A DNA stretch of 64,000 bases, from positions 47,793,843 through 47,857,842 of the forward strand of contig OZ038384.1 in the NCBI GenBank assembly GCA_964036045.1. Reading direction: 5' to 3'. The notes beneath the pieces were generated by a model. The model did not search any database. It was not told where the DNA came from and worked only from the letters and a program-made list of their open reading frames with translations. Made by a program: the position numbers and the translations under genes. The stretch's first letter is position 1. The number at the start of each line of letters is the position of its first letter. This DNA is from Eutreptiella sp. 'Long Island Sound 2002'. Taxonomy: Eukaryota > Euglenozoa > Euglenophyceae > Eutreptiales > Eutreptiaceae. Shown one piece after another: positions 13,185 to 59,462 of the stretch.

Positions 13185-13446
<262 letters not shown>

Positions 13447-14142: not shown

Positions 14143-14375
<233 letters not shown>

Positions 14376-14377
<2 letters not shown>

Positions 14378-14409: not shown

Positions 14410-14422
14410 TATATCCTCTAAT

Positions 14423-15550: not shown

Positions 15551-15585
<35 letters not shown>

Positions 15586-21114: not shown

Positions 21115-21155
<41 letters not shown>

Positions 21156-21160
21156 TATAT
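21115..21160. repeat. (TA)n tract
   Basis: TA run between the end of R copy B and the left end of E copy 2. Confidence 0.9.
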
Positions 21161-21168
21161 CCTCCAAT

Positions 21169-22349: not shown

Positions 22350-22351
22350 AA

Positions 22352-22633
<282 letters not shown>

Positions 22634-23568
22634 CTAACAACAAGCAACAACAAGCAACAACAACACATCTCCGTGCCGTTTTGGCCATTGCTCGGTCCCA
22701 ACGCTTCGGATCATTTGCCCACGTAGCCATCTTGGAGCCTAGGTGGTGCCCTTGCCAAATCCAAGTTTTGAGCCAAAAACTCACCCGTGGCGGCCCAGGG
22801 CGGTGGCGCTAAGTCGAGAGGTGCCCTCCCAAATCTGCGTTGTTTTGGGCCAAAAACAGCCATTTTCACCCAAAATAGTCCCCAAACCCGGGCGAAACGG
22901 CCAAACGAAGGAAAACGGTGGCCGCACTGCACGTGCGGCTTGACTTCACCATCTGAAAGAGCCCACTAGTGCCCTTCAACTCCAGGATATGTCCGAGAAA
23001 CGGCCCAAAAAGGTGCCAAAAAGCCCCCAAAACGGCGCAATATGCACCAACGCCCCGAAACCAAGCACAGACCGTATCTTGGGCTACGTGGCTCAAAATC
23101 CAATTCCGAGGGCACCTAGTCCACCCGCAACCCCCCTCTTTTTGTGGTTTCCAAGCCTCAGAATCGCCCAACGAGACACGTAGACCCCCGTACTACCCTG
23201 TGTGCGCGCAATGGTGCATTTTTTCCATAGTGCGCGCAAATTTTCAAAAATATGACCTTTATAGCGAGCCTATTGCGCGCGCTCTACCGCGCTATATTGT
23301 CCCGTTTTTCAAATTTTTCAAAACCGGAAAATGTTTCAAAACCATGCTTTTTCCAGTGTTCTGCGTTTCTCAAAAACCCCTTGCTTTTCAAAAATATTCC
23401 CTGTTGCTCATCCAACCCAAGACACATGCAAAAACACTGTCTGAAAGGTCTGAAAAGTGTGCAACAGTACAGGTCCTCACGGGCACAGACAGTGTAGCGC
23501 GCGCAACATATTTACAGCGCGTGCTATGAGCCTTACGGCGCGCGCTATACCAGGTATAGCGCGCGCTG

Positions 23569-26245: not shown

Positions 26246-29200
26246 CACAGTTCCTCATCCGCAAAATATGCCCGAACCCCGTCAGCCAATTTTTGTGCAT
26301 TGCACAGGTTGCTTCTAGAGGTCCCATTCCACCTTGGTACTTCAAAGTACAGGAACAGACGCTCATCAACCTGCCCGAGCATCTTAATGCGGCGCGACAG
26401 CAGGGTTCCTGCCCCCCCACCTCTATCACAAAAGGAGGACCAAATGTCCTTCAGCACCCTGTTGCTCCCTTCCAAAAGATCCCCCGAAAACATTCCTAGG
26501 CCATAGGGCCTTATGGCCTGAATAGTGACTGTAGCATCGTGCAACATCCTAGTAATATAAGGTGATCTTATTGCTGGACAAACCCACCTCTGGAAAGCCT
26601 GGGCAACCTCTGGAGCCTGCAATGCACCCTCTTCAAACATTGTGCCATACATGTCCCCCAGTAGTATGTACATGGCAACCACTGCTGTGTGCATCCTCAT
26701 GTCACCCCCAAGGAGGGGGGCCAGGTCCTCCCAAACCTTTAGAAGGCACCAAGTCTCTTCCCCATCCGGCTCTGCCGTCCCCTGTAGTGCTATGTGACAA
26801 CCAGACCTGAGAAGAATAGCCTGAATAGAGACCCTAGTACTGGGACGCACAGACTTGGCCAATCTGCGTACCAAGGCAGTGACCTGCCTCCCCAGAAAAA
26901 TCAGAAGGTGCAGAACACATGGTATAAGGTGACGCCGCCTCAGCGGCACCTTCAACAACCTGCTCTGGACAACACCAAATATATCCATGGGCCTGCACTT
27001 GGCCCCAGGTGCAATAAGCCCTAGCAACTGCTCATCTCGCTCGGTGGTTCTATCCACATCCTGTTGCAACCACGTTGCACTGGACTTGCACCACGTCATG
27101 TAACTGAACAAACTACCTGCGATCCAATGTGTAGTGACACCCGACAACCGACGCAGCCAAGGGCTATCCCCACCGCAGAAAATCCTGCAGCGTCTGGATG
27201 CACCCCGGATGGGAACCACACCACTGTCAAGGGCACTCTGCAGAAAAGCAAGATTGTTAGCCAAGAACCGGGAACAACACAGAGGTGGACTTCTCACCAC
27301 AAAGGGCGACGTTAACAGTCCAGTGGTAGGACAACGTCCTTGCCAAGTGACCATGGTCGGCAAAGGAAATGGACATCTGGCACCACGATTCCCCCCCACA
27401 AGGCAACCCATCCCCCCTCACAATGATCCACAGCTCTCCTTGGCACTCCTTGGGGTATTGGAGGTTAGAAACAATGGAATCAAAGGAAAATATTTAGTCA
27501 AAAAAGTGCTGCAGGGGCCACTGCGAAAAGACTGTGACCCCATCTGTGTGCACGGCAACCTGTAAATGCTGCCTACTTGCAAGCTGGTTCCATTCTGTGG
27601 CGAAATTGGCATAGGACGGGAGAGAAAAAAGGTGTGTGGGGACCTTACTTCTCGTCCAAGTAATCAAATCTTTGTACCTGAGTAAAATAGCGCGCGCAAC
27701 ATGAGGACGTAGCGCGCGCAGAAGTCAACGAAGCGCGTGCTATGAGCGGAAGTGTGCGCAATGTCACATGCAAAGCGCGCGCAATAATACCTTCTTCTTG
27801 GAATCTTCAGGGGCAGGACCAAGTCCACCACCGACAGGGGTGTGACGGCGTTGGCAGCCTCGTTCCTGCGACGCTTCTTCTCTGCTTCAGACACGGGGAC
27901 CAGGAGTGGCGAGGGACCAACCACACCACACACCAGCCACAGAGCAAGCGCCAGCCGAGGGAAGGCAAAGGGAGGAACAGCCAGGCCGCCCCCCCCCCCC
28001 CAAAAGAAAAGGGGGGGGGGGAGGGGGGGGCGTGAAAACAGCCCACAGCCACCAAACCCGCCAACAACACAGAAGGAGGCCCAACCCCCCACCCAGAGGG
28101 CACCGAAGACATGACCCCCAAAGAGGCACAGTAGGACCACCCAGCCAAAACCGGCAACACCAAGCCAGGAACAGCGGCCTACCGGGAAAAGGGGCACAGA
28201 AACAAGCAGACACACACCACGAAAAAAAAAAAGCCAGCAGCCCAGCCCGAAAGAAAGGAGACGGGGGCAGCGACCACAAGGCCCGGGACAGGGACACCCA
28301 GCAACCGGGAAAAAAAAAAACACAAAAGCGCAAAAAACACACGCCGACAACCCGGCCAAGAAGGGCGGGGCACAGCCGAGACCCAGACCGGAACCGGAAA
28401 CGGCAGGGGGCAAGGGAAACGCGCACGAAACCACACATGTCCCGAAAGCAGGCCGACACCAAAGCCCAACCACGAACACCACAAACAGCCGGCAAAAGAG
28501 GGACAGCACCACAAACCGAGCCCAAACACACCCACCCAAGACCCCAGCCACGACTGGCAGGGGTGAACAAAACCCACGACCCACCGCAACCCGGACCCAA
28601 CCACAAAGCAAGCCAACAGTAGGAAACCCAGTGCCCACAGCCCGGGCACTGAGGCAGCCCGAGCCATGCAGGTGACCCGGCCAAACGAGATCCGGAGACC
28701 GGGGGTAAGGCTGCATCCTAAGGCCAGCGCTGCTTTGGGACTCGAGGCGGAGCGTGCCACACCCAAGCGCCTCGGAACCCAAGTACCAAGAACATGCATG
28801 CATGCCTTGGGAACGGGATACGCCAGGAAGTCCGGTGAACCTCTAGGGTTCCGCCCAAAGGAGGGGACGTGCGCAAGCACGGGGGCACACCCTCCCGGCG
28901 AGACAAGCAAGTCACGCCGGCGGTGATCAGCCCTCCCGGTGATGCCCGGGGCCGCTTTGTTGGGGGCCAACAGTCAGGTCTAGCGGGATGTAAGCCGCCT
29001 CCCCTCTTCACGCGCGGAGCCTCTTCCTGTTTGTCACAGGGGCGACGCCAGGGGAAACCAAGGGGCGCCTCTCCACGACCGAGTGCACCTACCTACCTAC
29101 CTACCTTCAGACACGGGGACCCTTTTTTCCAACCTGGCCCACAAAGACCGTTGGACGGCAGACCCTGAGCAAAAAAACTCAACTAGGTCCGCCAAAAGGT

Positions 29201-36490: not shown

Positions 36491-37560
36491 GACTCGTACA
36501 AGTTTTTGCAACATTTGCTTCATACACCCCCGCCTTTGTATTTGTTGCTTTCATTTGCTTTGCTGTTGCCTGTTGCATGAATTTCACGCATTTTTGAACT
36601 CTACCCGCCGCCAAAGGCAGCGGAGCAAATTTCGGAAATGTATTAAAAATACATCCTCCGATGATGTCCAGCATTAAAAAATAAGGAAAACATGCAAGCA
36701 GTCCCGGCTACATTATTAAAAAATAAGGAAAAGGAAATTAGACAAGGCTTCTCAACGGAGTTATTATTCTGTATTTCGATTGATTTCTACAGTAACCCCA
36801 ATTCTACAATACGGATAACACTTGCGTATGAGTGCCGCATTTCTGCGGACGAGGGATAAGAGGCATTGTTTCATTCACTCGCTATTGTTCGTAGAACATC
36901 ATGCGCTACTGAACTTGATTTGCGGCCCGTGCGAGGGCCACCAAAACTCTGTTTTTTGTTTTTGTGCTACAACGCCGTCAACGGATAGAGCTAGAGAAGG
37001 CTACCTGCAGCGAACGGTGCACGAGCTTTGGAAGAAAGGGTAGCCAAGAACCTTGTGGCATGGCCCCTTTTCTACCCCCTCCCTTCGCGTTGGCATGCTT
37101 GGGGCCATAACACACTGCAAGTGCTATTGATGGGAATGATGGGGGACCTGGGTGCATGGAAACATACATGTGGGAAAAAAGCAACCCTGGCTAACCCTCG
37201 TGGGCCCTACTATGGACGATGTTTTGACTTTGCCACCTTTCCCTATCCATGAATCAATCAAGTGCGTTTTCTCGTTGTGTTGCATTGCAGCTATGTGATC
37301 ACACGTCAATTTGAGCCATCTTTTGTCCCGCCAAGAGCACCCAAACCGTCACTCACTCAAAATGTTACTGGCCTTGTTGCTTGGCCGCGTGTGTTCCGCC
37401 AAGTGAGGAGTGGGCTTGGACTGGGATTGAGAACCATATCTACAAAGTCATCCCTAGAATTGTGGGTGGGGACTATTCTCAAATCAAATCCGTCAACGTT
37501 TTGTGGGCATGCAAACATCCTCCTATGCCCTCATTTGTTTTCAAGGCGTTTCATATTTGC
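36491..37560. other. Intergenic region upstream of the VKOR gene
   Basis: No gene seen. AT-rich near 36630-36830, possibly a 3' UTR; the part near 37260-37560 would hold the promoter and 5' UTR of the VKOR gene. An open frame extends upstream from the VKOR ATG to 37381 but lacks an obvious start codon. Confidence 0.5.
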
Positions 37561-38550
37561 ATGAATGGTCCAGGGGCAATTAGTCGGGCGCAACCACGGC
37601 ACACAACCTCGCACACAATTAATGTCATGGACGTCAACATGGAAAGCCAAAGCGAGCCGCATAAGGACGAGCGCCATCCATGGACCAAAGTCTTCCATCG
37701 ATTGTTAATCATGGCGGGACTCGGTATCTTGATTTCGCTTTACCTTGTGCACGAACACTATACATCGACCAGTAGTATTTGCGATATCAGCATGACCTTT
37801 TCGTGTAGCCGAGTCAACAAGAGCCGCTTCTCTGTGTTGTTCGGTGTGCCCGTGGCATTTTGGGGGATTTTGTGGAATGTTATGCTTGCGGAGATTTCTC
37901 GTAAAAGTCTCCAAGTCCTGGAAGTCAACCAACTCAAAGATCAAGAACTGTTGAGGACGTACGTATTCTTTTTGTTCGTGTGGTGCTTAGCGGGCATCGG
38001 CTTTGTGGTGTACTTTATCATCGCCGAGTATTTGTTACACGCCATGTGCATCTTCTGCACCATGGTCCACGTCTTGATAGTGTTAGCTTTTGCCTTCGTC
38101 CACCAAATTTTTAAATCCATTCGAATGTTCCCGGAGGTGGTTCAAATGGTTAAGAAGATGCGCAAATACATCTTGAGTCTCGGGGTGGCCGCCGTCTTGT
38201 TGATTTTGGTCTTCAATTTCGGATTGGTACATAAGGCGCAAGGCCATTCGGGTTTGGAACACCGAAAGTACGACACCTTGTCCTTCGCTAGGTGTATGAC
38301 GAAAAATGGTTTTACTATGTTCGGGTCCATGAGTTGTGGGCATTGCGTCGAGCAAAAGGAGATCATTGGACCGGCTTGGGAATTTACGAAGTTTGTGGAA
38401 TGTCAAGAAACCGATTGCGAGAGCAAGAACGTCACCGGATTTCCAACATGGATCCAAATTATGGATGATAAAGAGATCCAACGGCACGAGGGATTGATGT
38501 CCCTTGACGAGCTAAGTAACTTCACAAAGTGTGATTTGGAGTCTTTGTAG
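37561..38550 (+). CDS. VKOR-thioredoxin-like fusion protein
   Basis: Membrane oxidoreductase that makes disulfides or recycles quinone: an integral VKOR domain passes oxidising equivalents to a fused thioredoxin-like domain. No introns. I start at ATG 37561 (329 aa); ATG 37627 or 37639 are alternatives. After about 45 hydrophilic residues come a first membrane segment (LLIMAGLGILISLYLV), the luminal loop pair Cys in ICDISMTFSCSRVNKS, FGVPVAFWG, two further membrane segments (YVFFLFVWCLAGIGFVVYF), and the quinone-site CIFC (38047-38058) at the start of the next, LVFNFGLV preceding the soluble domain. The thioredoxin domain has CGHC (about 38335) and cis-Pro GFPTW. VKOR-Trx fusions occur in plants, cyanobacteria and several algae and protists. 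Stop TAG falls where family members end. It is the only ordinary host-type gene in the window. Confidence 0.88.
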   Translation: MNGPGAISRAQPRHTTSHTINVMDVNMESQSEPHKDERHPWTKVFHRLLIMAGLGILISLYLVHEHYTSTSSICDISMTFSCSRVNKSRFSVLFGVPVAFWGILWNVMLAEISRKSLQVLEVNQLKDQELLRTYVFFLFVWCLAGIGFVVYFIIAEYLLHAMCIFCTMVHVLIVLAFAFVHQIFKSIRMFPEVVQMVKKMRKYILSLGVAAVLLILVFNFGLVHKAQGHSGLEHRKYDTLSFARCMTKNGFTMFGSMSCGHCVEQKEIIGPAWEFTKFVECQETDCESKNVTGFPTWIQIMDDKEIQRHEGLMSLDELSNFTKCDLESL

Positions 38551-43971: not shown

Positions 43972-46831
43972 TTGGTGATTGGTGAAAATCCTGAGCTGTT
44001 CACCCTTTGGGGCAATTTCCGTGGATCATTGAATATAATCTCAATTTCTGAAGCCAAATTCACGCTTGCCACCTTCCATTCACCACCCCGCCGTCATTTC
44101 ACTGATCGCGTGGTCATCATGAACTTCACTCTATTTGCGAGCTCCAAAGCCGCCGATGACGGCCTTTCTACGCTATTCAAACATTCGCCATCGCACCTCT
44201 TTCAAAAACACCAAGCCTCAAATTTGCCGCCAGAAACCCGCTTTCCTTCACGCCAATATGAAGCCGTTGACGGCAAAATACTTGACACACGCCAACGCAT
44301 TTTTGTCCGTGAGGTCTACCGCCGCCTTCAAGACTACTCCGAGTGTTACTTGGATGTTGAAGGCACCGATATTGAATCCGCTTTTGTTGGGAGCAATCCC
44401 ACGGAAAATTTGGACCGAGGCAGGGTCTCTTCCGTCGCGCACCATAACTACAACGAGCTTGAAAAACTATTGTTCAAACACAAGCGCTTTTACCTAAAGC
44501 CATACGAGTTGGACTACTCTCAAACCGAAGCCAAAAGCTCTCCGCCTACCGCCCCCCCCGTGTGCTAAACAACTACGAACCGTGTTAGATAAAGCCAAAG
44601 AAGAGACTAAAGACCTCAAAGGATGGTTCGTTATTCCGGCGTCGGACGCTCAAGTGGTGGCCGCCACTTTTCGCATGCTAGGCTCAACTCCCGCCCTTTT
44701 CCCAATCCATGCTTACATTTCTAGCGTGGTATGCATGCACGGAGTGCAACTCCGGGACGTCTACCTGGTCAAAAAGGACGGCAAAGACTCCTACGAGTTC
44801 CGCACAAGCGGGCATCAAACGGTGCCGTATGTTGCCTTGCTCCTAAACACCTCTTCCTTCGACGGATGCCGATACGAGGACATCAATTTTAAGTTCGAGC
44901 CATTCCGCTCCGCCGCCAAGCATGCTCATCTGACGGTGCGCGACCCACGGTTGCAGAAAACACTACGGTTTGAAGTAAGGATATAATTCCTTGATCACAT
45001 CGAGCCTACGCCGCCGGAGGAGGGACACAAGTCACAACCAAAACAACGCAAAATTGGAGACACCCGTGCATTCATGAAGCTAATGAATGAAATGTTTGTC
45101 CCCGCTTTAGCAAATGTGTCGGTGAACACCAAGAATGCATACTACCCATTTGGCCACATTGTTCCTTCCGAAAGCCCACATTGGGCCTACTATCGATTGG
45201 ATTGGGAACCCCCGTCCCGCTTCACCGACGAGCTCATGTTTGAAGTCCGCGAGTGCCCCCAATTCCTCACCGGGGAACTCATTGCAATGGACATGCACGC
45301 TTTGCCATCTACCGAGGTCTGTCGTGCCGTGATCGCCAGTGACCAGAAGGAACGTAACAAACATCTACAAGCCCCTGAAAGCCTCACCATGATGATTGCC
45401 AACCTTCCCGGGGGACGAGGTGCTTCACCGCCCTTGAAGGCGATGTTCCAGTCTATCGATTCCCTTGTCGTGGCGATTGACACCACTCACGCGCCGTGCG
45501 ACGTCATAAAAACCGGAGTGCAAACTCTTGCCATCCGTCTCTTCCACTCGTGCGGCATCGTCCTTTTCCTTGGCATAGATGGGCAATTGGTGCGGTTTTC
45601 GTCAAGATCCGACGGCAACACAAGGTCGGCACCTTTGAGCGCCCCCGAGCGGGCCCACGCAACGCGGGCCCCGCCCTCATACAACTCGTCTAAAGCCCTG
45701 AAAACCGCCGTGCTCCTAGTGGCCCCGAGAGCGGCGCACGCCCTCAACTTGCGTGTCCAAGCGGGATTCCTTGGCCCCGACGTGTCCTTTGAACCTACGC
45801 GGCCTCCCTACAAGCACCAACAAGCCCACCTCGTGGTTTACAAGAAGGAAGGGTCCGCGCTGCTAGCGCATGACTTCAAATATGGAGACGCCGCTTTTGC
45901 CCCCTTGCACCGCAACCTCCTCGCCCTCGAGAAGATCCTTCCTGCCCAAGACCCGGACGTAGCCGAGCAAGAGTAACCCATCGTGCGGCGCCTCCAAGCG
46001 GGCGCCGCCTTGGGCTCCACGGCCATCGTATGCCAGCCTGCCTCCGCCCTCCGCGAGCGGCCCGCAACTGGGCTTTCTGAGCGCATCAGCGAGTGGAATG
46101 CGGCGCCGGACGACACCGACGCTGCCGCACCGACGCCGGGTACAAGCCGCATCGAGGAGATGTCCGAGACGGTCGTCCCGCTGCTTGCTCCACTGGGGGG
46201 TGAAGCAACCACGCTCCTACCCCCCGACCACAATGCCCCCGCCCCGGCTCCGGAGATACAAATTGACTCCCGCCTCCCCGCTGGTTTCTATTACGTCCGC
46301 GACGTATTCTCCGAAAGCGAAGAGGAAACGGTAAAAAAGGTCCTCCACGACAACACATGGGAAAAATACCAAGGGTGCTCCGTCCAGCACTTCGGTCACG
46401 CATACCTAGGCCCTGGCAAAGTCACCGCCACGTCCCCCATCTCAGAAGAATTTTCCTCGATCACCCAAACCTTCACCGCCGCGTTGGAACGCCTGGGCCC
46501 CCCGCACCCTCCCCCAAATCAAATCACCGGCACAATACATCTTTGCGGAGAAGGCATCGGCTACCACAAAGACGACCCCCTGCTAGGCGACCCGGTGTCC
46601 ATTTTTTGCTCTCAATCGGACACCACGATGTTTTTTAAGAACCCCTCCAACGGAGACTCGTTTTGCATCCGCCTGTTTGCCCGCTCTCTCCTTGTCCTCA
46701 CGGGAGCCGCACGCAACGAGTGCCCCCGTGGGATACCCCGACGGAAAGAGGATGAGGTCTTTGGGGTAACCGTCCCTCGTACAACCCCGCGCCTCGCTCT
46801 AATCCTTCGCCACATTCCGCAGGCAAGCTAA
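43972..46831 (+). pseudogene. Retroelement ORF1-type protein with AlkB-like domain, broken
   Basis: One long reading region with three breaks: a one-base shift in a C8 run near 44556, then TAA at 44984-44986 and TAA at 45974-45976, both in the same frame as what follows. The first 600 codons are unfamiliar. The last third (about 46270-46830) looks like an AlkB-type 2-oxoglutarate/Fe(II) dioxygenase: GFYYVRDVFSESEEE, TIHLCGEGIGYHKDDP (HxD iron ligands), then LLVLTGAARNECPRGIP and RLALILRHI (the Arg pair). The usual third ligand, His in the xHGIP position, is Arg here, so catalysis is doubtful. An endonuclease start lies downstream (48900-49025), which fits a LINE with AlkB in its first ORF; such LINEs are known from protists. 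Function in intact elements would be RNA or DNA demethylation. Confidence 0.55.
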
Positions 46832-47052
46832 CGCATGAATACCAGAGGGCCGGATACCCGCCCCCCGCTCCCTTCAGCCCTCTCTGCCAACGCAGGCACG
46901 CGCCAGGATTCAGTGAAACACTAGCCATGTCACGACTTCCCCTGATGCTGGCAAGGGGCTAGACGAAGCGCTCGCCTCGGCCGGGGTACCAGCCAACCAA
47001 GTCCAGCACTTCCGCAGCCTTAGCCCGCCCAGCCTGCCCAACCCCCCTGTGC
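46832..47052 (+). other. Spacer between the AlkB-like frame and transposon T2'
   Basis: An ATG at 46835 directly after the stop opens only 31 codons. Probably the decayed start of a second retroelement ORF. Confidence 0.35.
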
Positions 47053-48762
47053 CTTAGGCGGCTCAAGTTGCATGGTCAAAATCACACCAAATGCACCCGA
47101 TTGGGACCATGCAAAAAAATAGCTTTTCACAGGCTCTGTTTTTTGAAAACAGAATATTAGTCCAAAGAAAGTATCTTTCTTACCATTTGTGCCATTTTGT
47201 GCTTTTTTTCGGACAGCCGAAAACAAAAAAAAATATGAAAAAAATAAATAAATCTTATGATTTCAGTGGAAAATGATGTGCTTTTAGCGGAAATTCGCCA
47301 ATAAATACATTTTGCGATCCCCTTGTTTTTTGGATGAACATGGTCGGCAGAAAAGATGATTGCAACATCATTTTCTGTTCTGCATGTTCATTGCATACCT
47401 GGAAAAATGATTTATTGATCGAGTTCTATGCGCGAGGCCTCGCGCAATCAAGACCAAGGATCATTAAAACAGAAGCATGGCGGATGAAATATCAATGCAA
47501 AGCATATGCAACATGTGGTTCAAGGGCTGCCCCATGCGCGAGGCCTCGCGCATAACTTACCAAACCACAAACCCCACCCGATTCATTTTCCTTTGGAAAG
47601 ACGGCTTCAGGGTCGAGTGGTCTTACTACCCACCCCACGGTTTGATTTTTGATTTGCACTGCCTGAAAAAAGAGGTATAGGTTGTGACCTTCAAGTTCTG
47701 GGACTGCATTGCAGTCCTCATTGCGCGAGGCCTCGCGCAAAAAAAGGGCCAGAAAATATATTCTTTGTACCATTGTGATGGGTTCTCATCTGATAGCGCT
47801 TGTGCACAACTTTCACTGAAGCAACGAGTACCTAAATTGTCGTTGAGTCATTGAAATTTACCAGAAGCTTGCCCCCCCCCCGTAGGCGGAAAAACTCTTT
47901 TTGAGCTTGGTCAGCCCCTGCGCTTGGCAGACTGCTTCCCCTAGGGCACCTTCTTTCTCCAGGTATCGAACCTCATCTTGATAATTGGTGTGGTTTGCAC
48001 TACATTGCATTTTACTCTCCAAAAAATCAGTTTTTTTTGGCCCAAACAAACGCTCAAAAAAGTGCCACGCACGGCAAATTCACATTTTCTTTGCACATTT
48101 TACTGTGATCTATAGTCAACAACGGAAGGATCTGTTTTTCTTCAGCCAAAGCTACAGGGGGGGTCCCTTTCCAGCTCAGCGTCATTCTTGAGTGCACATG
48201 CTTCATGTGTTACCAGTGATACTCTTTTTTTTGCTTGACACTCCCCATAACTTGTGGGAGATGTGCATCATGAGAAATGCTGAAGGATGCACCCGGTGCA
48301 ACACCTCGAACGTATGTGCTCCTTTTGTTAAGAATGCAACAACATTAGAAATGATTTCTTGAGTCATCAATTAGATTTGCAAGGCTTGTTTAGAGCGCTG
48401 AATGTCCGCCCGCGTAAACATATTGTACAATGTGATCAAGTCAAGGGTGCCTGTAATGTCACTCCAGTGTAGGCGCCTGCTTGATTCCTCAATTCTACCA
48501 TCATTACCTGACTTTGGAGGGGCAATGGACTGCTCCTTGCGCGAGGCCTCGCGCAAGGAGCAGTCCATTGCCTCAAAAAGAGCATTTTTTGGACCCATGA
48601 GGACCAAGGAAAGGCCAAAATTCTTTACATAAGAGTTCTTTTGGTGTTTCAAAAACGGCTTGATCTTTTGCAAGCCAAAGAATGGTTCTTTTGATGTTTT
48701 TTGAGGCCCTGTATTTTGGGCACTTTCTGTCGTTTTATACCATGCAACTTGAGCCGCCTAAG
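47053..48762. mobile_element. T2', non-autonomous 1.71-kb member of the T2 DNA transposon family
   Basis: Terminal inverted repeats CTTAGGCGGCTCAAGTTGCA plus TGGT, 24 bp perfect, flanked by the 5-bp duplication TGTGC (47048-47052 and 48763-48767). It carries four perfect palindromes GCGCGAGGCCTCGCGC (47430, 47536, 47723, 48539) but no transposase and no long frame. It interrupts the retroelement described at 43972-46831. Confidence 0.92.
48521..48572. repeat. Perfect 52-bp palindrome inside T2'
   Basis: The core GCGCGAGGCCTCGCGC (48539-48554) is extended on each side by 18 further perfectly complementary bases (left arm starts GGCAATGGACTGCTCCTT). It has no spacer. Confidence 0.93.
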
Positions 48763-48767
48763 TGTGC

Positions 48768-49025
48768 CCCTCTGCCCTCACCCCCCCCTTTCCCACCACC
48801 CCCGAGGTCCAGCAAACGCCTACGGAAGGGATACCAAAGGCCGCACCGCCCCCCTGCACCCCTTCGTTCAGAACTACGGTTCCTCTCCCACCACTTGCAG
48901 AAAAAGCCTATTGTGAGTAGCCAAATTCTCCGAGACCTCAAAAACGACTTCGACATCCTCTTTCTCCAAGAAATCAACCATACCCCCATCCTCCCCCACG
49001 TATACATCTACGGCTCGGGCACTAA
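48768..49025 (+). pseudogene. N-terminal piece of a retroelement endonuclease
   Basis: The frame carries ILRDLKNDFDILFLQEI, the first catalytic block (Glu) of the EEP nuclease family. Removing T2 joins YIYGSG at 49020 in frame to TKATMVSNIS at 55433, showing the two pieces were one. The joined frame stops at 55597, so the element was already truncated. Confidence 0.55.
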
Positions 49026-49914
49026 CTTAGGCGGCTCAAGTTGCATGGTCAAAAACGAAGGAAAAGGTAGGAAAATGACAGGTTTCCAAATGCATCAAAA
49101 AATAGTTGTTTTGATGGATATTTTAAAACTGTCGCAAACAAGTATGGCAGAATAAATATTTCTATAAGAATGACGTGTCCCATGGGCGAGACAGGGAAAA
49201 GTATTGTTTGGTGACCATTCTTTGCACGAGGCCCCGCGCAAAGACTTTCATTTGTGTCAGATTAATGTGCTACAGCACGACACATTAGGCAGGTTGTCGA
49301 AAAATGGAACCCTGTCGTATTTATACACTTAACTTAGTACCATTATCAGCGTTGCGTGATAGAGATGGATCTATTAACAAATAAACTGCAACAATGGTGT
49401 ACCCAAGAATCTTGAAAACTATAAATGTTCCGGAACAAACTGCAGTTTCAAGCGCGAGGCCTTGCACATGGAACGGCTCATGAGAAACATTAAAGTTTCG
49501 GTGATCATTGCGCGAGGCCTCGCGCAATGGATCTCATAAGCGCTCATAGAAACCAAAAATGGAACAGATCCACCAACTACACAGCATGTGCATTCCCTTG
49601 ATGCGGCGCTGCTGCATGGGCGCCCATACAGGTCCCGCCGGCATCTCCAGTTTTCATACTTTGGTCACCGCTGGCTTCACTGCCCAACAGCGATGGTAGC
49701 GCGCTGCAACTGGCTACCGCAATCAGGATTAACTAGTCAAATTTGGGATCACCAGACAGTTACAGTTAACCAAAAATGGTGCATGCGACAAGCGAGTCAC
49801 AGAATAATTGGTCGCGCGAAAACTGTGTGACAGGTTGATGTTTCAAACGAAGAAAGTTTTTCAAACAGTGATCTTTACGTAGATACAGGTACGCAATTAT
49901 TCTTCACAGCAACA

Positions 49915-51912
49915 GTGCCCCTGCGAAAAGAGGTGGACCTTGAGAAGACAGTTGCCGCAGCATCTGGAGTTTTCCGCGATGTCTGCTCAGACCAACCGCC
50001 GTACCACACGGCAGAAGAACTGTGTGAAGGGCTAAAACAGGGGGACGAGGGCGCGCGATTGTTGTTTGTGTTTTTTCTCCATCTGCGCAAAAATGAACGG
50101 ACGCGTTGCAGCGTTGAAAAGGCGATTGCCGCAGAAGGCAAGAGATGGGTTGGTGTTTTGATAGAGGAGGCCTGGCGCCTTTATTTGCTGATGCGCCACC
50201 GCGCAGTTCCATACTAGGAAAAACCGAAGTCAGTTGTTGGGGTAGAGGGAAGTAGGGCGCAGCGTCGCATTTTAGCAAGGTCAGGTCTGGCGCGATACAG
50301 CGCACCTTCGCTGAAGGAGAAGGCCGCAGTTAGGTTACAGACTACATGGAACAAAATACACCAACAGTGGGTTGTGTTGTGGATGGACAACTGGTACAAC
50401 AAACAGTTTACCACAAATCCTGACAAGAACGACAGAAGCCTGAACGCAACAGCGTTGGCTGTGTTGCTACTGAAGGATGCACCGCGCTACTGGCATGGTC
50501 ATCCTAGCCTGGAAGAGCTTGAACGGCGTGTTCTGGTTGTTGCACGCATGCTGGGGAACACCGAGGGAACATTTGCACGTATCCTGCGTGATCTGGGATT
50601 TGCAAGCAAGCAACCTGTTGTTCGAAACATTAGGGCGCCGCTTGCCATTATTCGCCCTGTACCTGCCAAGAGACCACATTGGCGACCCCTTTGTCTAAGT
50701 AAAGAAAAGGTGAGCGGCAACGTCTCGCTGCTTAATCTATTGCAATTCACTAGGGACTTGGCGCAGCACACTCGACCAGTCGTGCCTGTTTTATGTGAAG
50801 TGACTTGTGATGAGAACATCCATTACCGCATTTGTAAGATGATGTACGGTGAAAAAACAACGGGTTGGAATGTCCGGCTGTTCTCCCGGTCACACCATAT
50901 ATTGTGTGGTTTCTGGCACGCGTACAAGTTTTGCGTTACACAAACATTTCGCTCATTTTGGCCGATCGTGACTTTCCTCCGTAAAGGTTTGTTGCGCAGC
51001 GGTGACACAGTCCCCTGTTTTCCCAAGATGATCACAATGGAGATAACTGTTGGCGCACTGCTGTTGGGTATGGGCCCCCACATACGGCGCCTTGACAGAA
51101 AATGTCATTCCCTTGGGTTGGCACGTCCTGTAAATCGGCGAGGACGCCTCCGTTACGCTGTGTGTAAGGCCATACAGGTTCTGTTAACACAATACTGTCC
51201 TATGTTACTATACCCAGGACACCTCGTTAGGCAGTGCAATTGGCCCGGGGAGACGGCCAACACGGGTGTTTTTGCTTCTGAGGGATTGCAGATTGTTATC
51301 TGTCTGTTAGACCGTTTGAACATGGGGGACGAACTTTTAAAATACGAACGCACTGTTGCAACTGCGCTATTGTGCCACACTGCATGGCACACAGCCATGC
51401 CTGGACAGGCTTTTGCCGAGGAGTTTTGTGAAAGTCTGCTTTCCAGCCTTGTGACAAAGAAGGGCCAAAACAGAGGTGCAGTAACCATTGGAGATGTTGA
51501 CGATCTGTATCATCTCATCACTATCCGCAAAGAAGGTCACAGGGTGAACGTCTGCAAAATCCCCAATTCCTTTGTCAATTCCGTGCGTCAGCGGTTAACT
51601 GCTTACTTGAACGCAGAGCGTGTATATGTGCCTTGGGTTAGGTGGTGTGCTGAGCCTACTTGTACAATTCAGGCGCATTGGCCGCGCAGGGGTGTACCTA
51701 ACCTTCCACCGTCTCTTCTAATTCCAGAGGGTTCTAACCACTACAAACAAGTCCTTGTGTCTGTGTTGTTGGTGCTAACGCAGCAGGGGCCGCTTAAGGC
51801 TGGTTTTAAGCGAAAACCGTCGGAGCTGATCCCCCAACGCAGTGTGTTGGAGGAACATAGAGAGGCCGACACGCTGCGAAACGTTCGAAGAAGATTGGAG
51901 AACATGCAGTGA
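49915..51912 (+). CDS. T2 gene A: putative transposase, with one in-frame TAG
   Basis: Open from 49915 except for a TAG at 50215-50217, then in the same frame to TGA at 51912, about 665 codons. The first conserved-looking block is VVLWMDNWYNKQF, where Asp in a strand ending DN resembles the first catalytic residue of an RNase H-fold transposase. Further blocks: SLNATALAVLLL, VPVLCEVTCDENIHYRICKMMYGEKT, GFWHAYKFCVTQTFRSFWP, and near the C-terminus GQAFAEEFCESL with candidate acidic residues. From memory, proteins with the same succession are found as unannotated repeats in dinoflagellate and other algal genomes; I cannot name a superfamily. The next gene starts 236 bp downstream with two palindromes between. 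Position inside exact inverted repeats is the main reason to call it transposase. Confidence 0.6.
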
Positions 51913-52147
51913 TGCGCGAGGCCTCGCGCAAACAGCATGAAACAACAGGTTAGTACACCCCCTCTCTTGCGCGAGGCCTCGCGCAAGGTTGACAGTCAAA
52001 AACAGTGCCGAGCCCCTTCAGTTTTGCAATCTCAACCATACTGTACTCGTATTCGCTAAAAGCGCCTCACATATGCATTATCGACGACGATTCAAACCTT
52101 TTTCAATGTTATGTTTCCTTCAATACAGGCTTTCTCCTTATCGCAGA

Positions 52148-54933
52148 ATGGCAAGCCCCGCCAAAAAAACAGCCGAGGAACGAGAAGATACCGACTATGA
52201 CCCTGGGACCTCAGGATCGGAGGCTGCAACACCAAAGAAGGGGCGTAAGAAGAAGGAAAAACCCGATCCTGGCTTAACCTTGGGTACTGACATCGAGGAC
52301 CACCTGAAACCGGACGGGAGGCAGGTGGAGGTTGAGCTGGACAACGTGAGAATCGACCAGGAGAAGACAAAGGGGCAGATTAGACGGAAAGATAGGAAGT
52401 TACTGCAGAAGCGTATTGAGTCACTCGAAGCAGCACCGCCAACAGGCCCATTACACGTCGTTCTCTGGGAAGATAATAGTATGTTGCCAACCGACTGTTC
52501 GCTCTTCTCTTTGCGCGAGCCCTCGCGCATAGACGTGTCTCATATTTGCAGATGGCGATTATTGGTGTGTATCTGGACAGCACAGCGTGGAAGCGATTGC
52601 GAAGCTCGGGAGAAGCGACGCACAGCGTGTCTGGATCTGCAGCAGTGGCATACTACATGCATCGCCGATATTCTGAAGCCTACGACACCGTGGGCCTTTC
52701 GTGCAAAGCTGGCGGGAGAAGCACAAGGAAGCGCACAAGTCATTGAGGCAATACCGCTGTATGAGGCAGCAGATAACCTCACTCGATGTGTTGAAGATCA
52801 GCGGCGGCGAGTCCTGGCTGACACGTACAGCAATCTCAAGATCGCCATTGTGGATGCTGTGCAGATGAGTGCCCTGGTTTCAACCGCTGAACTGAAGCAG
52901 CCTGGTCAATTCGTATGTTCATTGATCGTTGTTTCGATGATGTCCGTTGCGCGAGGCCTCGCGCATAACGTTGTCACTTTCAGGACAAAACGTATAAATT
53001 GTGGAAAGATTTTATGACGTTTGCCTACTATGCTGGTCCGGAAGCTGTGAAAGATCTGCAGAAGTTCCGCTACAAAGGCGAGAAAGTCACGAAGAACGCG
53101 CTGAAGAAACTGGACGGGATCCTGTTGCCGGAGTTCTACAAGAAAGTGGCAGAAGGGATGCAGGAAGAAAAAACAACCCTTAAATCCTTGCCGAATTCGA
53201 TTGACGACATCATCCTTGACCAGTTGGTCTTAATGCATCTGGACCACCCGCACAACGGCCAGTACGTTAGACCTGAGAAAGGTGTGTACCATCAACGCAA
53301 CGTGGGTTCCGCTTCTGCATTGGTGCACCGCACTTTCTCCATTTCTGTTCTTTAGCCAAAGACATGCAGACCCGCAAAGAGGTTGCTGCACTTGGAAGGC
53401 CTGCGCTGAAGGTGACTCTTGGTACATGGGGCTATTGGCGGGAACCTGAAGGCTAAAGTCGCGGTCCATGGCCGGCATGGAAATCCATGATTCGCGCACC
53501 ACTGTGGCAGGTGGCAGAGAAAGGCAAACCCGCCTCCCTGAAAATCCTCAAAGTCCAAACACTCCTGGGTCAAGAGGCTACCAAGAGGCGTGTGGTCCCC
53601 TCAGCTGCTGGCGCAACTGGTGACTTCAAGAAAGTGGAACAGCAGGATCCATTACTGGCAAGTCAAACTATCACAATTAAGGCGACCCGAATTGCAGCTC
53701 TGGCCCGCGATCCCCCGAAGCGGTTCATGGAGATTGACAAGAACCTGATTGTCATCAACGGCGACATATTTGAACATCTTGCTCCTGAGATGATGTGCCC
53801 AGCCTGGCTGTATGAAGAGATGGCGCGTGCCGATACCCTTGTCTGCGGCCCTCAAACTGTTGTTGACAACATGTTCGACGTGCTGGAGACGGAAACAGAT
53901 AGGCGTCTCAACGATAATTTCAACGCGCCGCGCATGGCTAACATGTTGCGTGTTCCCATCTTCAGTTGGCCAGTCAAACCGAAGCCTGCAAGGGATCCTA
54001 CAACATTTGACGTTCGCTAGTTGTTGATTTCGTCACCAGATAGCTGGTCGAGAAAGGTATAATTCCCTCATTAGGTCCGCTCTTTGCGCGAGGCCTCGCG
54101 CAATAACTTCTCCCTCATTGCAGATTCCGAATTATCTGACGTTTGGACCTACTCAAGTAGAGGAGATGGATCCTGTTGAATTTGGCGGTCACCTTCCGAT
54201 AGCGACGGTTATGTGGTATTTCGACACTCACCTCTTTTACCTGAAGCAGGATAAGAGCTTCAAGCCTGCGTTTGTGTTCATCGATCATCAGCCGGATCTG
54301 GTGTGCAAGATCGCATCCATCGAGCCGGATTCTCGCACGTACCTTCTTGGTGTTACCTCCGACAATCTCTCCGATTGGGTCAACAGAGTGCAGACTCAGT
54401 TGAACCACCTCTTGACACAAGGGTCGAAACTGGACGCGTCTGGTGATTGGGACCAGCAGGCAAACTGGTCAAACCGTGGTATTCCCCTTTGGGATCACGA
54501 TGACAAGGTGGGTTCTGATGCGTTGTCGCTGAAGGAGGAAGAGACTGTTGACAAAGGTCAAGCTGCAGAAGCACTGGCCCCTGCAAAGCAGAAGTCTACT
54601 GGTGGGGAACCAGCCCCCAAGAAGAAGAAGACTGCCTCCAAGCCTCAGGCAGCCAAGTCGGTTACCGGTGCAGAATCCGACGAGAGCGATGGGAATGAAG
54701 AGGAGGAGAGCAAGGAAGAAGAGGAGGAGGAAGTGCAGGTCTCCCAGTGCAAGGCAGCGAACAAAGTGGCAGCGAAGCCGAGGTCCGAGGAAACCGGGGC
54801 CCGAGCTCCATTCAAGCAGCCAGCCCGTCAGTCCCAACCAAGAAGCGAGCCCGCAAAGCCACCGCCTAAGGGTAAGACGTCCGTTGCTAAGGCATTGGGT
54901 TCTAAGATGCAAACTGTTCCGAAGAAAAAGTAA
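52148..54933 (+). CDS. T2 gene B: ParB/sulfiredoxin-like N-terminus plus low-complexity tail, five exons
   Basis: Exons 52148-52478, 52552-52912, 52984-53281, 53356-54056 and 54124-54933; introns of 73, 71, 74 and 67 bp, all GT-AG. After a Lys-rich start (TPKKGRKKKEK) comes a ParB/Srx-like pattern: VELDNVRIDQEKTKGQIR, then PLHVVLWED and, across the first intron, GDYWCVSGQHSVEAIAKL; GQHS stands where ParB-type proteins have GxHR. The middle is a unique globular region; the end (54540-54930) is Lys/Glu/Pro-rich with coiled-coil-like runs and KKKK-type nuclear signals. Lesions: a one-base loss near 52633, TAA at 53453-53455 and TAG at 54018-54020. ParB-family domains bind or cut DNA and some hydrolyse CTP; a role in recognising the palindromes is my inference. 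The tail was duplicated at 58332-58706. Confidence 0.6.
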
Positions 54934-55689
54934 TTTCTTCGCTTGTTCTGATATATTATGCGCGAGGGCTCGCGCTATGCATTCCTCTTCGACAACCTTT
55001 ATGCTGTCACCTTGTGCGGCACATTTTTCTCTGTGATGCATTTTATTGCGCTGTTGTGCTGGTGTTTGCGCGAGGCCTAGCGCAAAGAGGGGATGCCAAA
55101 AATGCTTCTTGTCGTGCAGCGTGCAACATGGTTTTCGAAAACTGGTTTTCCAAAAGATTGAAAGCTCATGGGTGTTTTTATTGCAAAGCATAAGTGGTAT
55201 AGGAAACAAAAAGTCGTGGGTTTCCCAAAAAAGAACTTCATTTTGGTGGAAATAAATCATTTTCCCGGGCAGTCGGTTTTGTTGAAAATAAAGGAAAATG
55301 GACCAGTTAATTGCTTTTGGGAGGATTTTTGGTTCTTGTGTTTTAGGTCTCCCCCAAAAGGACTATTTTTTCGCAGTGCCGTGGAGAGGCAGTTTTGGGC
55401 GCATTTGGACCATGCAACTTGAGCCGCCTAAGACTAAAGCAACCATGGTTTCAAACATCAGCCGAGACAACACTCCAGGGGCGAGCACGGATCCATTTTG
55501 GTTTGCTCCCCTTGACTCTCTCGTTTCATCACCCCCGTCCCAAGGCTCGACACGGAAGGGCTACTTGCAGAAAGTTGGCACGGGCTTTCACTTTTGATTG
55601 CTTTGATGATATTGTTTTGTTGATGCCCCTGCTTGCTCCTGCTGCTTCTTGATGTAGTTCAGGCTTTCCAAACAAAAACGTTTTGATGA
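54559..55689. repeat. 1131-bp direct duplication, left copy
   Basis: CAAGCTGCAGAAGCACTGGC to CGTTTTGATGA, repeated with the same length at 58332-59462 (about 9 differences by eye). It covers the 3' end of T2 gene B, the right end of T2 and flanking DNA. Confidence 0.93.
55433..55597 (+). pseudogene. Continuation of the retroelement endonuclease frame after T2
   Basis: TKATMVSNISRDNTPG... continues the frame that ends at 49025 and stops at 55597. No further domain is recognised. Confidence 0.45.
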
Positions 55690-58331
55690 CGGCGCACCAC
55701 CACGCCCTCACCGCCAGGCGACGACCCCGGCCACCACAAAGGCCACCTCACAGGCACCGGAAGAGGACGAAGGCACGGCCGCGGCACCCACGACTAGGGA
55801 CCGAAACCCCCAGAGGACACGGGACCAAGGCACAGGCCCCCAGGGAGGGCAACCCCACGGACCGTCACGCGACCACGCCTTTGGCTATAAGGGCCGGGCT
55901 GCGTTACCGTCGCGGTTCGACGCAGAGTATTGCTATGCACTTGGATTGACGGCCTGGGGCTTGATCTCAGCTGGTCTCACGTCCGTGAGGGCGTCCGTCA
56001 CCAACCTGTTGCGTCCAGTGGAGGAATGGCACTGCGGCGGCACGCCGATCCCGTCCATGATGAATTTCGAGCGCCGCAAGGGGAAGTTAAAGGCTGTGAT
56101 CGCGAAGGACTTGGTGCTGCTGGACGGTGCCCCCTTCAAGGCCTTCTCCGAGCGCCGTGAAGACTGGAAGTGCCAAGATTACTACCGGTGCCCTGGACCC
56201 CTGCAGTTCAGCACCGGAGATATGGACATCCCCCTGACCCTGAAGTATGAGCTCATGCCTGCCGGCGGCACCGACCCGGACCCTCATGTCCCTGCCAGCG
56301 CAGCCGAGCTGCAGTGCAAGCCTTTCGCCACCCAAACGGCATTCGGAAGCCACCTCCACCGTCCGACTCCTGATTTCTGTTTGTCTGCCTTGGAGAAGGA
56401 ACGCCTTTCCTACACCCCGAGTACGCCTGCCTGTCTGCGAGGCCCGGTGAAGATTGAGTCCATGGGTGAGAGTCAGCGTGCACGCCCCAAGGACACCGTG
56501 ATCATTCAGCAGAATTTCCCGAAGACCTACCCGACCCACCAGCCCGAGCGGCACGCCCAAGCCCCCACAGCACGGACCCAGCGAGCCACCCACACCTAAC
56601 CGCACCCCCCAACCACCAGCCGGCCATACTCCGGCCCGCACCCCGCACCACGACACAGGCCAGGCTGACCTCCACTGACCCACCGCGGCACTACGCGAGA
56701 CCACGGCACACCGCACCACAGCGCGCCACAGTGCAACGCACCACAGCACGACGCGACGCGGCGCGGCACAGAGCGGCACAGCACGACACAACTGACCCTA
56801 ACCTGAGGGACTAACCGAAGCCAGCCACCGCACACCCTGGAAGGCGCCGCGCCACCACGCCACACACCAGCACCGCAGGCCACACACGGGGCCACAGCGC
56901 GCCAGGCGACAACAGTGGCGGACCACCCAGAAGATTACAGCCGGCACCGCAGAGGGGAAAGGACACGAACAACCCAAGCCCCCTAACCCAAAAACCACAA
57001 GCAGCCGCCTGGCGCAGCTGCCCAGCCGGCAGAGCCAGGACCTAACCCGGCAAGAAAGGGCGCCGAGCCCACCGTGTACATAGCCCACGCGACCCATGGG
57101 GCCGGAACGCGGCCAAACAGAACGCAACTGAAAACAGCAGCCCGGAAGACAACACTGAATGCAGGCCAGTGCGTGCGCCAGCCCAGGGAAGGCAGAGGGA
57201 GGAACAGGCAAGCCCCCCCCCCCCAAAAAAAAAGGAGGGGGGAGGGGGAAAAGGCACGAAAACAGCCCACAGCCGCCAAACCGCCCGCCAACACCACCAC
57301 AGGCGGCCAAGGCCCCCCCCAGAAGGCACCGAAGACAGGACCCCCACAGAGGCACAGGGGGACCACCCACCCAAAACCGGCAACACCAAGCCAGTAACAG
57401 CGGACCACGGGGAAAAGGGACACGGAAAAAAAAAAAAAAAGAGAGCCACCAGCCCAGCCCGAAAGAAAGGGGATGGAGGGACAGGGACCACAAAGCCCGG
57501 AAAAAAAAAAGAAAAGAAAAAACCAAAGCGCAAAAAACACACCCCGACAACCCAGCCAGGAAGGGCTTGGCGCAGGCGAGACCCGGGCCCAGCACACACG
57601 CCCACACCGCACGCCGGAACCGGAAACAGCGGGGGGCAAGCGGAGCGCCCACGAAACCACACACGTCCCAAAAGCAGGCCGAAACCGAAGCCCAACCACG
57701 AACACCACAAACAGCCGACACTAGAGGGACAACACCACAAACCGTGCCCAAACACACCCACGCAAGCTCCAGCCAGGACTGGCGGGGTCAACAAAACCCG
57801 CACCCAACCGCCAACCGGACCCAAACACAAACGCCACACAACAGTAGGAAACCCAGTGCCCACAGCCCGGGCACTGAGGCAGCCCGTGCCATGCAGGTGA
57901 CCCGGCCAAACGAGATCCGGAGACCGGGGGTAAGGCTGCATCCTAAGGCCTGCGCTGCTCTGGGACTCGAGGCGGAGCGTGCGACACCCAAGCGCCTCGG
58001 AACCCTAGTACCAAGAACGTGCATGCACGCCTTGGGAACGGGATACGCCAGGAAGTCCGGTGAACCCCTAGGGTTCCGCCCAAAGGAGGGGACGTGCGCA
58101 AGCACGGGGGCACACCCTCCCGGCGAGACAAGCATGTCACGCTGGCGGCGATCAGCCCTCCCGGCGTAGCCCGGGGCCGCTTTGTTGGGGGCCAACAGTC
58201 AGGTCTAGCGGGATGTAAGCCGCCTCCCCTCTTCACGCGCGGAGCCTCTTCCTGTTCGTCACAGGGGCGACGCCAGGGGGAACCATGGGGCGCCTCTCCA
58301 CGACCGAGTGCACCTACCTACCTACCTACCT
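55690..58331 (+). mobile_element. 2.64-kb non-LTR-type insertion carrying a PFP gene fragment
   Basis: Lies exactly between the two 1131-bp direct repeats. The right end is (CTAC)n and the last 1.2 kb matches the insertion at 27902-29104. A coding fragment of a metabolic enzyme occupies about 55870-56535. The rest is AC-rich with homopolymer runs and no recognisable protein; long frames on the opposite strand (57042-57941 and others) are Gly/Cys/Val-rich composition artefacts. Confidence 0.75.
55870..56535 (+). pseudogene. Captured fragment of pyrophosphate-dependent phosphofructokinase (two-domain PFP)
   Basis: The frame reads FGYKGRAALPSRFDAEYCYALG, then GGTPIPSMMNFERRKGK and DGAPFKAFSERREDWKCQDYY, blocks typical of the C-terminal third of PFP, which converts fructose-6-phosphate and PPi to fructose-1,6-bisphosphate. 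It goes on to ALEKERLSYTP, PACLRGPVK and QNFPKTYP, which match the N-terminal opening of a PFP domain. So the fragment spans the junction of two fused PFP domains. It lacks start, active site and end, and is flanked on both sides by element DNA. Assignment rests on recognised motifs, not a search. Confidence 0.68.
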
Positions 58332-59462
58332 CAAGCTGCAGAAGCACTGGCCCCTGCAAAGCAGAAGTCTACTGGTGGGGAACCAGCCCCCAAGAAGAAG
58401 AAGACTGCCTCCAAGCCTCAGGCAGCCAAGTCGGTTACCGGTGCAGAATCCGACGAGAGCGATGGGAATGAAGAGGAGGAGAGCAAGGAAGAAGAGGAGG
58501 AGGAAGTGCAGGTCTCCCAGTGCAAGGCAGCGAAGAAAGTGGCAGCGAAGCCGAGGTCCGAGGAAACCGGGGCCCGAGCTCCATTCAAGCAGCCAGCCCG
58601 TCAGTCCCAACCAAGAAGCGAGCCCGCAAAGCCACCGCCTAAGGGTAAGACGTCCGTTGCTAAGGCATTGGGTTCTAAGATGCAAACTGTTCCGAAGATA
58701 AAGTAATTTCTTCGCTTGTTCTGATATATTATGCGCGAGGGCTCGCGCTATGCATTCCTCTTCGACAACCTTTATGCTGTCACCTTGTGCGGCACATTTT
58801 CCTCTGTGATGCATTTTATTGCGCTGTTGTGTTGGTGTTTGCGCGAGGCCTAGCGCAAAGAGGGGATGCCCAAAATGCTTCTTGTCGTGCAGCGTGCAAC
58901 ATGGTTTTCGAAAACTGGTTTTCCAAAAGATTGAAAGCTCATGGGTGTTTTTATTGCAAAGCATAAGTGGTATAGGAAACAAAAAGTCGTGGGTTTCCCA
59001 AAAAAGAACTTCATTTTGGTGGAAATAAATCATTTTCCCGGGCAGTCGGTTTTGTTGAAAATAAAGGAAAATGGACCAGTTAATTGCTTTTGGGAGGATT
59101 TTTGGTTCTTGTGTTTTAGGTCTCCCCCAAAAGGACTATTTTTTCGCAGTGCCGTGGAGAGGCAGTTTTGGGCGCATTTGGACCATGCAACTTGAGCCGC
59201 CTAAGACTAAAGCAACCATGGTTTCAAACATCAGCCGAGACAACACTCCAGGGGCGAGCACGGATCCATTTTGGTTTGCTCCCCTTGACTCTCTCGTTTC
59301 ATCACCCCCGTCCCAAGGCTCGACACGGAAGGGCTACTTGCAGGAAGTTGGCACAGGGTTTCACTTTTGATTGCTTTGATGATATTGTTTTGTTGATGCC
59401 CCTGCTTGCTCCTGCTGCTTCTTGAGGTAGTTCAGGCTTTCCAAACAAAAACGTTTTGATGA
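58332..59462. repeat. 1131-bp direct duplication, right copy
   Basis: Second copy of 54559-55689. It contains the C-terminal part of T2 gene B, two palindromes (58733, 58841) and the right T2 terminus (near 59205), hence a solo T2 end without its partner. Confidence 0.93.

Follow-up and report, generated by a model that had tools for sequence, protein, structure and literature searches.

CACTA/En-Spm transposons are two-gene elements with repeated subterminal sites that are retained in non-autonomous copies, and TNPA on En/Spm is the classical system of this kind. In Arabidopsis VANDAL21, the element-encoded anti-silencing protein VANC21 is reported to bind a 9-base motif, YAGTATTAY, that occurs as tandem repeats in introns and in intergenic and terminal non-coding DNA (PMC5735166), and methylation is reported to be lost throughout the element (PMC5735166, PMC10398659). 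An algal case has also been put forward: a Sola-1 transposon of Ectocarpus encodes a ParB-like and methyltransferase protein, and for this protein and similar ones of green and red algae the proposal is that they bind the DNA of their own transposon and mark it (PMC12477816). Here we describe two elements of a putative two-gene DNA transposon family, presumably of the cut-and-paste type and hereafter called T2, in a stretch of 64,000 nucleotides from Eutreptiella sp. 'Long Island Sound 2002' (contig OZ038384.1, positions 47,793,843 to 47,857,842, forward strand). This whole stretch is referred to as the window, and positions are counted from its first letter.

Both elements carry repeated copies of a palindrome, TGCGCGAG-NN-CTCGCGCA, in their non-coding DNA. 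We consider it probable (about 0.6), from the sequence features reported below, that the palindromes are sites for a dimeric DNA-binding protein encoded by T2 and that they mark the whole element. The proposal starts from four observations: the anatomy of the elements, the placement of the palindromes, their recurrence in other copies (where they are seen as peptides), and their presence in a gene-less element that is internally unrelated to its neighbour.

T2 elements and their palindromes

Perfect terminal inverted repeats (TIRs) bound both elements, with a length of 24 bp for element 1 and 25 bp for element 2, and both complete elements (2/2) are flanked by an exact target site duplication (TSD) of 5 bp. 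Of the features expected of class II (cut-and-paste, TIR) elements, which also include a DDE/D transposase, perfect TIRs and a TSD of fixed length are both found. The tips of T2 read CTTAGG..CCTAAG. The elements and their borders are as follows:

47048-47052, no strand: left copy of the TSD TGTGC
47053-48762, + strand: T2 element 1, 1710 bp, TIR 47053-47076 and 48739-48762
48763-48767, no strand: right copy of the TSD TGTGC
49021-49025, no strand: left copy of the TSD ACTAA
49026-55432, + strand: T2 element 2, 6407 bp, TIR 49026-49050 and 55408-55432
55433-55437, no strand: right copy of the TSD ACTAA
58331-59462, + strand: second copy (99.2%) of 54558-55689, covering the right TIR of element 2, the adjoining 3' part of the element and 257 bp of flanking DNA, with palindromes at 58733 and 58841

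Element 2 contains two genes, A and B. No gene was found in element 1, whose longest internal open reading frame has 100 aa, and this element is presumed to be a non-autonomous member of T2. When the two elements were aligned, matches with an expect value (E) below 0.1 were confined to the tips and the palindromes; three further short matches (14-21 bp) had E = 0.11-0.39, which is chance level. No empty insertion site for either element was found within the window. The elements lie only 263 bp apart, perhaps within one repeat. The partial copy at 58331-59462 is joined, after an ACCT repeat, to another repeat (57167-58331, 85% like 27940-29106), a junction that suggests a recent rearrangement or copy.

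The 16-base sequence GCGCGAGGCCTCGCGC, searched with up to two mismatches, has 14 sites in the two elements, nine of them exact. Sites start at 47430, 47536, 47723 and 48539 in element 1, and at 49224, 49452, 49510, 51914, 51969, 52513, 52949, 54086, 54960 and 55068 in element 2. When the 14 sites are aligned, the preceding base is T in 13 and the following base is A in 13, the next positions are A or T in all 14, and no position farther out, within 20 bases on each side, exceeds 0.8 bit of information. The unit is thus an 18-bp palindrome, TGCGCGAG-GC-CTCGCGCA, with a tolerant 2-bp centre. Because the centre varies at two sites (GC to CC at 52513 and GC to GG at 54960) while both half-sites stay intact, we write the site as TGCGCGAG-NN-CTCGCGCA. 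Half-site changes occur at three sites (49224, 49452 and 55068). Eleven of the 14 lie outside introns:

47429-47446, no strand: 18-bp palindrome, element 1, 377 bp from the left end
47534-47553, no strand: 20-bp palindrome, element 1
47721-47740, no strand: 20-bp palindrome, element 1
48521-48572, no strand: 52-bp perfect palindrome around the same core, element 1, core end 208 bp from the right end
49224-49239, no strand: degenerate palindrome with 2 mismatches, 5' non-coding DNA of element 2
49452-49467, no strand: degenerate palindrome with 2 mismatches, 5' non-coding DNA of element 2
49506-49529, no strand: 24-bp palindrome, 5' non-coding DNA of element 2
51913-51930, no strand: 18-bp palindrome directly after the gene A stop codon, in the spacer
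51966-51987, no strand: 22-bp palindrome, spacer between genes A and B
54960-54975, no strand: palindrome with variant centre, 3' non-coding DNA of element 2
55068-55083, no strand: palindrome with 1 mismatch in one half-site, 3' non-coding DNA of element 2

At the other exact sites the palindrome spans 18-24 bp; the one of 52 bp at 48521-48572 is much longer and may be the mark of an inverted duplication by hairpin repair.

Within the window, the palindrome is a property of T2. Two more sites (58733 and 58841) lie in the duplicated 3' fragment of element 2, and all 16 matches to GCGCGAGGCCTCGCGC at up to three mismatches fall in T2 DNA; in 100 dinucleotide shuffles of the window, the same threshold gave a mean of 0.17 matches and a maximum of 1. 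At exactly four mismatches, two similar places appear outside T2 (29376 and 33906). The plus strand has 14 copies of the half-site TGCGCGAG, every one in T2 if the duplicated piece is counted as such; of its complement CTCGCGCA there are 11, ten in T2 and one outside at 43821. Perfect palindromes of at least 14 bp with more than 10% G+C number 15, of which nine are T2 sites and six, elsewhere, have other sequences. If all nested palindromes of at least 16 bp are counted, the window holds 861 and T2 nine of them, pure AT-repeat palindromes being numerous elsewhere among the matches listed.

Placement was examined against the gene models of element 2. The introns of gene B were inferred from reading frame and GT-AG borders alone:

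49831-51912, + strand: gene A, presumed transposase, one long frame with an in-frame stop at 50215, 5' end uncertain
52149-54933, + strand: gene B, exons 52149-52478, 52552-52912, 52984-53281, 53356-54056 and 54124-54933, lysine-rich C-terminal part
52479-52551, + strand: intron 1, 73 nt, centre-variant palindrome 52513-52528, 23 nt before the acceptor end
52913-52983, + strand: intron 2, 71 nt, palindrome 52949-52964, 19 nt before the acceptor end
53282-53355, + strand: intron 3, 74 nt, without a palindrome of the T2 type
54057-54123, + strand: intron 4, 67 nt, palindrome 54086-54101, 22 nt before the acceptor end

Three of the four introns (67-74 nt) carry a palindrome, 19-23 nt before the acceptor end, and none occurs in an inferred exon. 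All ten sites of element 2 are non-coding, a class to which only 28.2% of its 16-mer positions wholly belong (P = 3.2e-6). Given non-coding placement, finding at least three of the ten in introns indicates no significant preference for introns over other non-coding DNA (P = 0.12). With respect to the ends, the sites of element 1 lie 377, 483 and 670 bp from the left and 208 bp from the right; the outer sites of element 2 lie 198, 426 and 484 bp from the left and 457 and 349 bp from the right, and its other five sites 1.3-2.9 kb from the nearer end. Location in introns or in intergenic or terminal non-coding DNA describes 14/14 sites of the window, and in other copies it extends, as peptides, to introns 1 and 2 and the spacer.

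Much of this had been anticipated in a preliminary description of the locus. The perfect inverted repeats of 24-25 bp and the exact 5-bp duplications that it reported are present at both elements; its distribution of palindromes over terminal DNA, spacer and three of four introns of gene B, with none in an exon, was recovered in full; and the comparison of palindrome density that it recommended, carried out within the window, leaves matches at up to three mismatches in T2 DNA only. Its perfect 16-bp palindrome does have 14 sites at up to two mismatches, but the unit proved to be longer and tolerant at its centre. The suggestion that sites are tolerated because they are spliced out agrees with the non-coding placement of all ten sites of element 2; for introns as such, no significant preference was seen.

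Genes of T2 and recurrence of the sites in other copies

The window copy of element 2 is not intact, and open frames exist in other copies. At the in-frame stop of gene A, a sense codon is present in 5/5 proteins that clearly cover the place (P0001, P0004, P0009, P0014 and P0022), out of ten compared. A non-standard code in which stop codons (in-frame TAGs) are read as sense was dropped on these grounds. Gene B has a frame change inside exon 2 and in-frame stops in exon 4, and proteins P0124 and P0195 keep a single frame through the broken part of exon 2. Near position 50800, the window's gene A also carries an additional three residues (EVT), which are missing from the ten proteins compared.

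No relative of gene A was found outside the T2 family. A comparison of 37 gene A proteins with Pfam at E up to 5 returned four families, each in 1 of the 37 and none a transposase (best E 0.08), and an earlier Pfam scan of gene A (two proteins and one piece from the window) and of pieces and proteins of gene B gave chance-level matches only. NCBIfam had nothing for a piece of gene B and a single chance-level match (E 0.11) for P0001. PDB, searched by sequence, had none for A1 or a gene B piece and chance-level matches for P0124 and A2. P0001, A1, A2 and the exact TIR 22-mer had no relatives in a viral contig set, nor had the TIR or A1 in a genome contig set from which records of the same genome were possibly excluded. 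As neither gene has a recognisable relative in these sequence comparisons, T2 is not placed in a superfamily.

Other copies of T2 are represented by proteins, that is, by open frames translated through introns. The main open frame of gene A matched at least 165 proteins at E up to 10, and the best 120 of 165 all had E < 1e-127; the 5' part of gene B matched 116, one of them the window's own. The contigs reach 7.8 Mb, and for P0086, P0097, P0100 and P0209 the longest contig (2,774,566) is that of P0121 and P0237, two proteins of the window itself. We infer that T2 is abundant in a large eukaryotic genome and that these proteins come from one genome. In translation the palindrome appears as the peptides ARGLA, REASR and ARPRA and their centre variants. 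Ten such peptides, taken as a loose set, had matches in 84/116 gene B proteins, the window's own included, and in 6/120 of the gene A proteins listed, at least one of the latter (P0011) by chance, inside coding sequence.

The peptides recur at the same places. Among proteins placed by pattern, the centre-variant peptide of intron 1 is intact in 45/65 and not in 20, and the peptide of intron 2 is exact in 23/30 and changed internally in 7. In the A-B spacer, 13/14 placed proteins, counted by eye, have at least one intact palindrome peptide (the exception is P0196), the other spacer palindrome being altered in several; P0065, P0132, P0168 and P0211 reach the spacer as well but fall outside the pattern. 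One gene A protein, P0079, runs into a palindrome that resembles that of intron 4. The idea that P0209, P0229, P0194 and P0220 have a quite different intron 1 was dropped, as theirs looks like the same intron in another frame.

Conservation was compared as mean pairwise identity of residues. For intron 2 (27 proteins: 34 found, six short or shifted ones set aside and the window's own dropped), the exon scored 0.928 and the palindrome residues 0.884, against 0.735 and 0.642 for the two intron flanks. For intron 1 (42 proteins, after setting three aside and excluding the window's own), the values were 0.966, 0.884, and 0.847 and 0.757, respectively. Palindrome residues thus appear better kept than their surroundings, clearly at intron 2 and weakly at intron 1, in a sample biased by the choice of proteins for their similarity to the window's translation, intron residues included.

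What the palindromes may be for

If the proposal is right, the palindrome would be the address of a protein encoded by the element, binding as a dimer with one subunit on each TGCGCGAG half-site; a dimer site is suggested because two intact half-sites flank a free centre. The product of gene B would be a more likely binder than that of gene A, the presumed transposase. With dimers bound in arrays in subterminal DNA, in the A-B spacer and in introns, the element would be marked from end to end, and two consequences may follow: that the element is kept free of silencing, as with VANC, or that transposition complexes are assembled or regulated, as with TnpA. Coding constraint would exclude the sites from exons, and introns would be merely non-coding DNA in reach. 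A role in cis is argued because element 1, internally unrelated and without genes, has four copies of the site. The preliminary description had likewise proposed sites for an element-encoded protein, and this is still the best reading, given that tips and palindromes are the sole sequence shared by the two elements above chance, that the sites recur in other copies and that they have the form of half-sites; it stays putative and sequence-based. Less fortunate was the remark that no described family with intron-borne palindromes was known, which the VANC21 motifs of VANDAL21, although non-palindromic, contradict in substance (PMC5735166).

A narrower form of the proposal is that the bound protein acts as VANC does and strips silencing marks from all T2 copies. 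We entertain it tentatively. The sites occur throughout the element and not merely near its ends, and their intron, intergenic and terminal placement is the pattern reported from chromatin immunoprecipitation of VANC21 in VANDAL21 (PMC5735166). Each exact palindrome holds four CpG dinucleotides, and element 1, otherwise poor in CpG (observed/expected 0.51), has 16/16 in its palindromes. The non-coding DNA of element 2, however, is not CpG-poor (observed/expected 0.84), and its sites retain 36/40, having lost four; the host may lack such silencing; and the VANC motifs are tandem (PMC5735166), whereas T2 sites are dispersed palindromes. One might also regard the palindromes as classical subterminal sites of a transposase or accessory protein, serving synapsis and excision, with the spacer and intron copies as extras. 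Such a function would be in keeping with six sites at 198-670 bp from a left end, with three at 208-457 bp from a right end, and with the presence of four sites in the gene-less element; yet 5/10 sites of element 2, in spacer and introns, are over 1 kb away from either end, too deep to be needed for synapsis, and we find this explanation rather unlikely.

Sites for a host factor, or hairpins formed in RNA (for splicing) or in DNA, are less probable still. The predicted folds of introns 1, 2 and 4 have a hairpin where the palindrome lies (energy of the entire intron -15.8, -19.5 and -13.7 kcal/mol), and the palindromes sit at a similar distance from the acceptor end. Intron 3 is equally stable without a palindrome (-18.2 kcal/mol), however, 11/14 sites are outside introns, and element 1 has no gene at all; besides, a centre that varies at 2/14 sites with half-sites intact suits a protein dimer. 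The last candidate is that independent palindromic mini-elements, or introner-like remnants of intron gain, were inserted into T2. Intron gain by transposable elements has been reported (PMC9860276), and one site is a 52-bp perfect palindrome. In spite of this we regard such an origin as very improbable: the window holds no copy outside T2 at up to three mismatches, the same sites are found at the same places in other copies, most sites are outside introns and intron 3 has none.

Several points weigh against the binding of a T2 protein as proposed here. Gene B might serve some other purpose, or the binder might be a protein of the host. Scans of pieces and proteins of either gene recognised no binding domain, and profile searches against Pfam and NCBIfam yielded chance-level matches at best. 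AlphaFold2 models were poor, with mean pLDDT of 36.8 and, for gene B, 47.6. The confinement of the palindrome to T2 concerns this 64-kb window alone, element 2 has two degenerate 5' sites with two mismatches each, and the CpG figures of element 2 given above point the same way. Synonymous changes are invisible in the translated frames by which other copies are seen, and the excess conservation at intron 1 is small. In addition, the next exons, translated in a non-native frame in the same proteins, reached 0.638 and 0.763, no better than the intron. Residue identity is only a rough measure, because this wrong-frame control scores as low as the intron flanks, and the control lowered our confidence in the proposal from 0.62 to 0.60.

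Neighbouring sequence and comparison with described systems

The window holds other features besides T2. A Ty3/gypsy-like polyprotein (2154-7253) matches reverse transcriptase, RNase H, integrase and chromodomain; its match to a Dam adenine methyltransferase is weak (E 0.0097) and below the curated cut-off. Two open frames beside element 1 (45074-46831) have no Pfam match; by eye, the second resembles AlkB, which some LINEs carry. Direct and inverted repeats rich in AT repeats (9404-10161, 13187-15627 and 21153-23196) are perhaps a fold-back element family. Another palindrome, AAAAACGCGTTTTT, is found at 14756 (16 bp with its flanks) and at 21341 and 21503 (14 bp each) in a different repeat family. 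An open frame with a VKOR domain (37381-38547, E 2.7e-20), which besides itself has one distant metagenomic relative, is probably a host gene.

A literature search found no description of the T2 family among the titles and openings of abstracts listed, and the palindrome and TIR strings, searched as text, led to one unrelated paper with a shorter, 12-base core. Transib elements have 5-bp TSDs and CACWATG-like tips; T2 shares the TSD length, its CTTAGG tips differ, and Pfam gave no transposase match. With CACTA/En-Spm, T2 has in common the two genes and the subterminal sites that are also present in a gene-less element. It departs from the CAC..GTG tips and 3-bp TSD given for CACTA (PMC12730594) in having CTTAGG..CCTAAG and 5 bp; it also differs in carrying sites deep inside the element, and gene A gave no match to a Pfam transposase domain. 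The 5-bp TSD agrees with that of hAT families described in the same source (PMC12730594), although gene A proteins matched no hAT family in Pfam. KDZ/Zisupton elements, with the 8-bp TSD given for Zisupton (PMC12730594), differ from T2 in this length, and Pfam gave no such match for gene A. The accessory protein of the Ectocarpus Sola-1 transposon, proposed to mark its own transposon (PMC12477816), is analogous to the gene B product by proposal only. Searches of Pfam and NCBIfam, and of PDB by sequence, gave no ParB match for gene B, and no methyltransferase turned up. For a ParB-like (ParB/sulfiredoxin) fold, suggested by a resemblance of the GQHS motif of gene B, the sequence searches gave no support, and the structure model was poor (pLDDT 47.6).

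VANDALs have a Mutator-like transposase and 9-bp target duplications, as against 5 bp in T2, and Pfam found no Mutator-like transposase domain in gene A proteins at E up to 5, a search that a very diverged one could escape. In its boldest form, which we think unlikely to hold, our proposal would make T2 an undescribed superfamily whose gene B protein loads on parS-like 18-bp palindromes, even in its own introns, and marks autonomous and non-autonomous members against silencing, an independent invention of the VANC type with palindromic sites. If the palindromes do bind a T2 protein, a further family besides the Arabidopsis VANDALs would address its whole length through motifs in introns and spacers, with a code far more recognisable than the VANDAL motifs; the repeated evolution of self-marking could be tested directly, and gene B could represent a new family of DNA-binding proteins. 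The likeness to VANDAL21 and VANC21 lies in a short family motif set in introns and in intergenic and terminal non-coding DNA (PMC5735166), a layout that T2 repeats with putative binding; the difference is that the motif there is asymmetric and tandem, whereas in T2 it is a dispersed palindrome of 18 bp.

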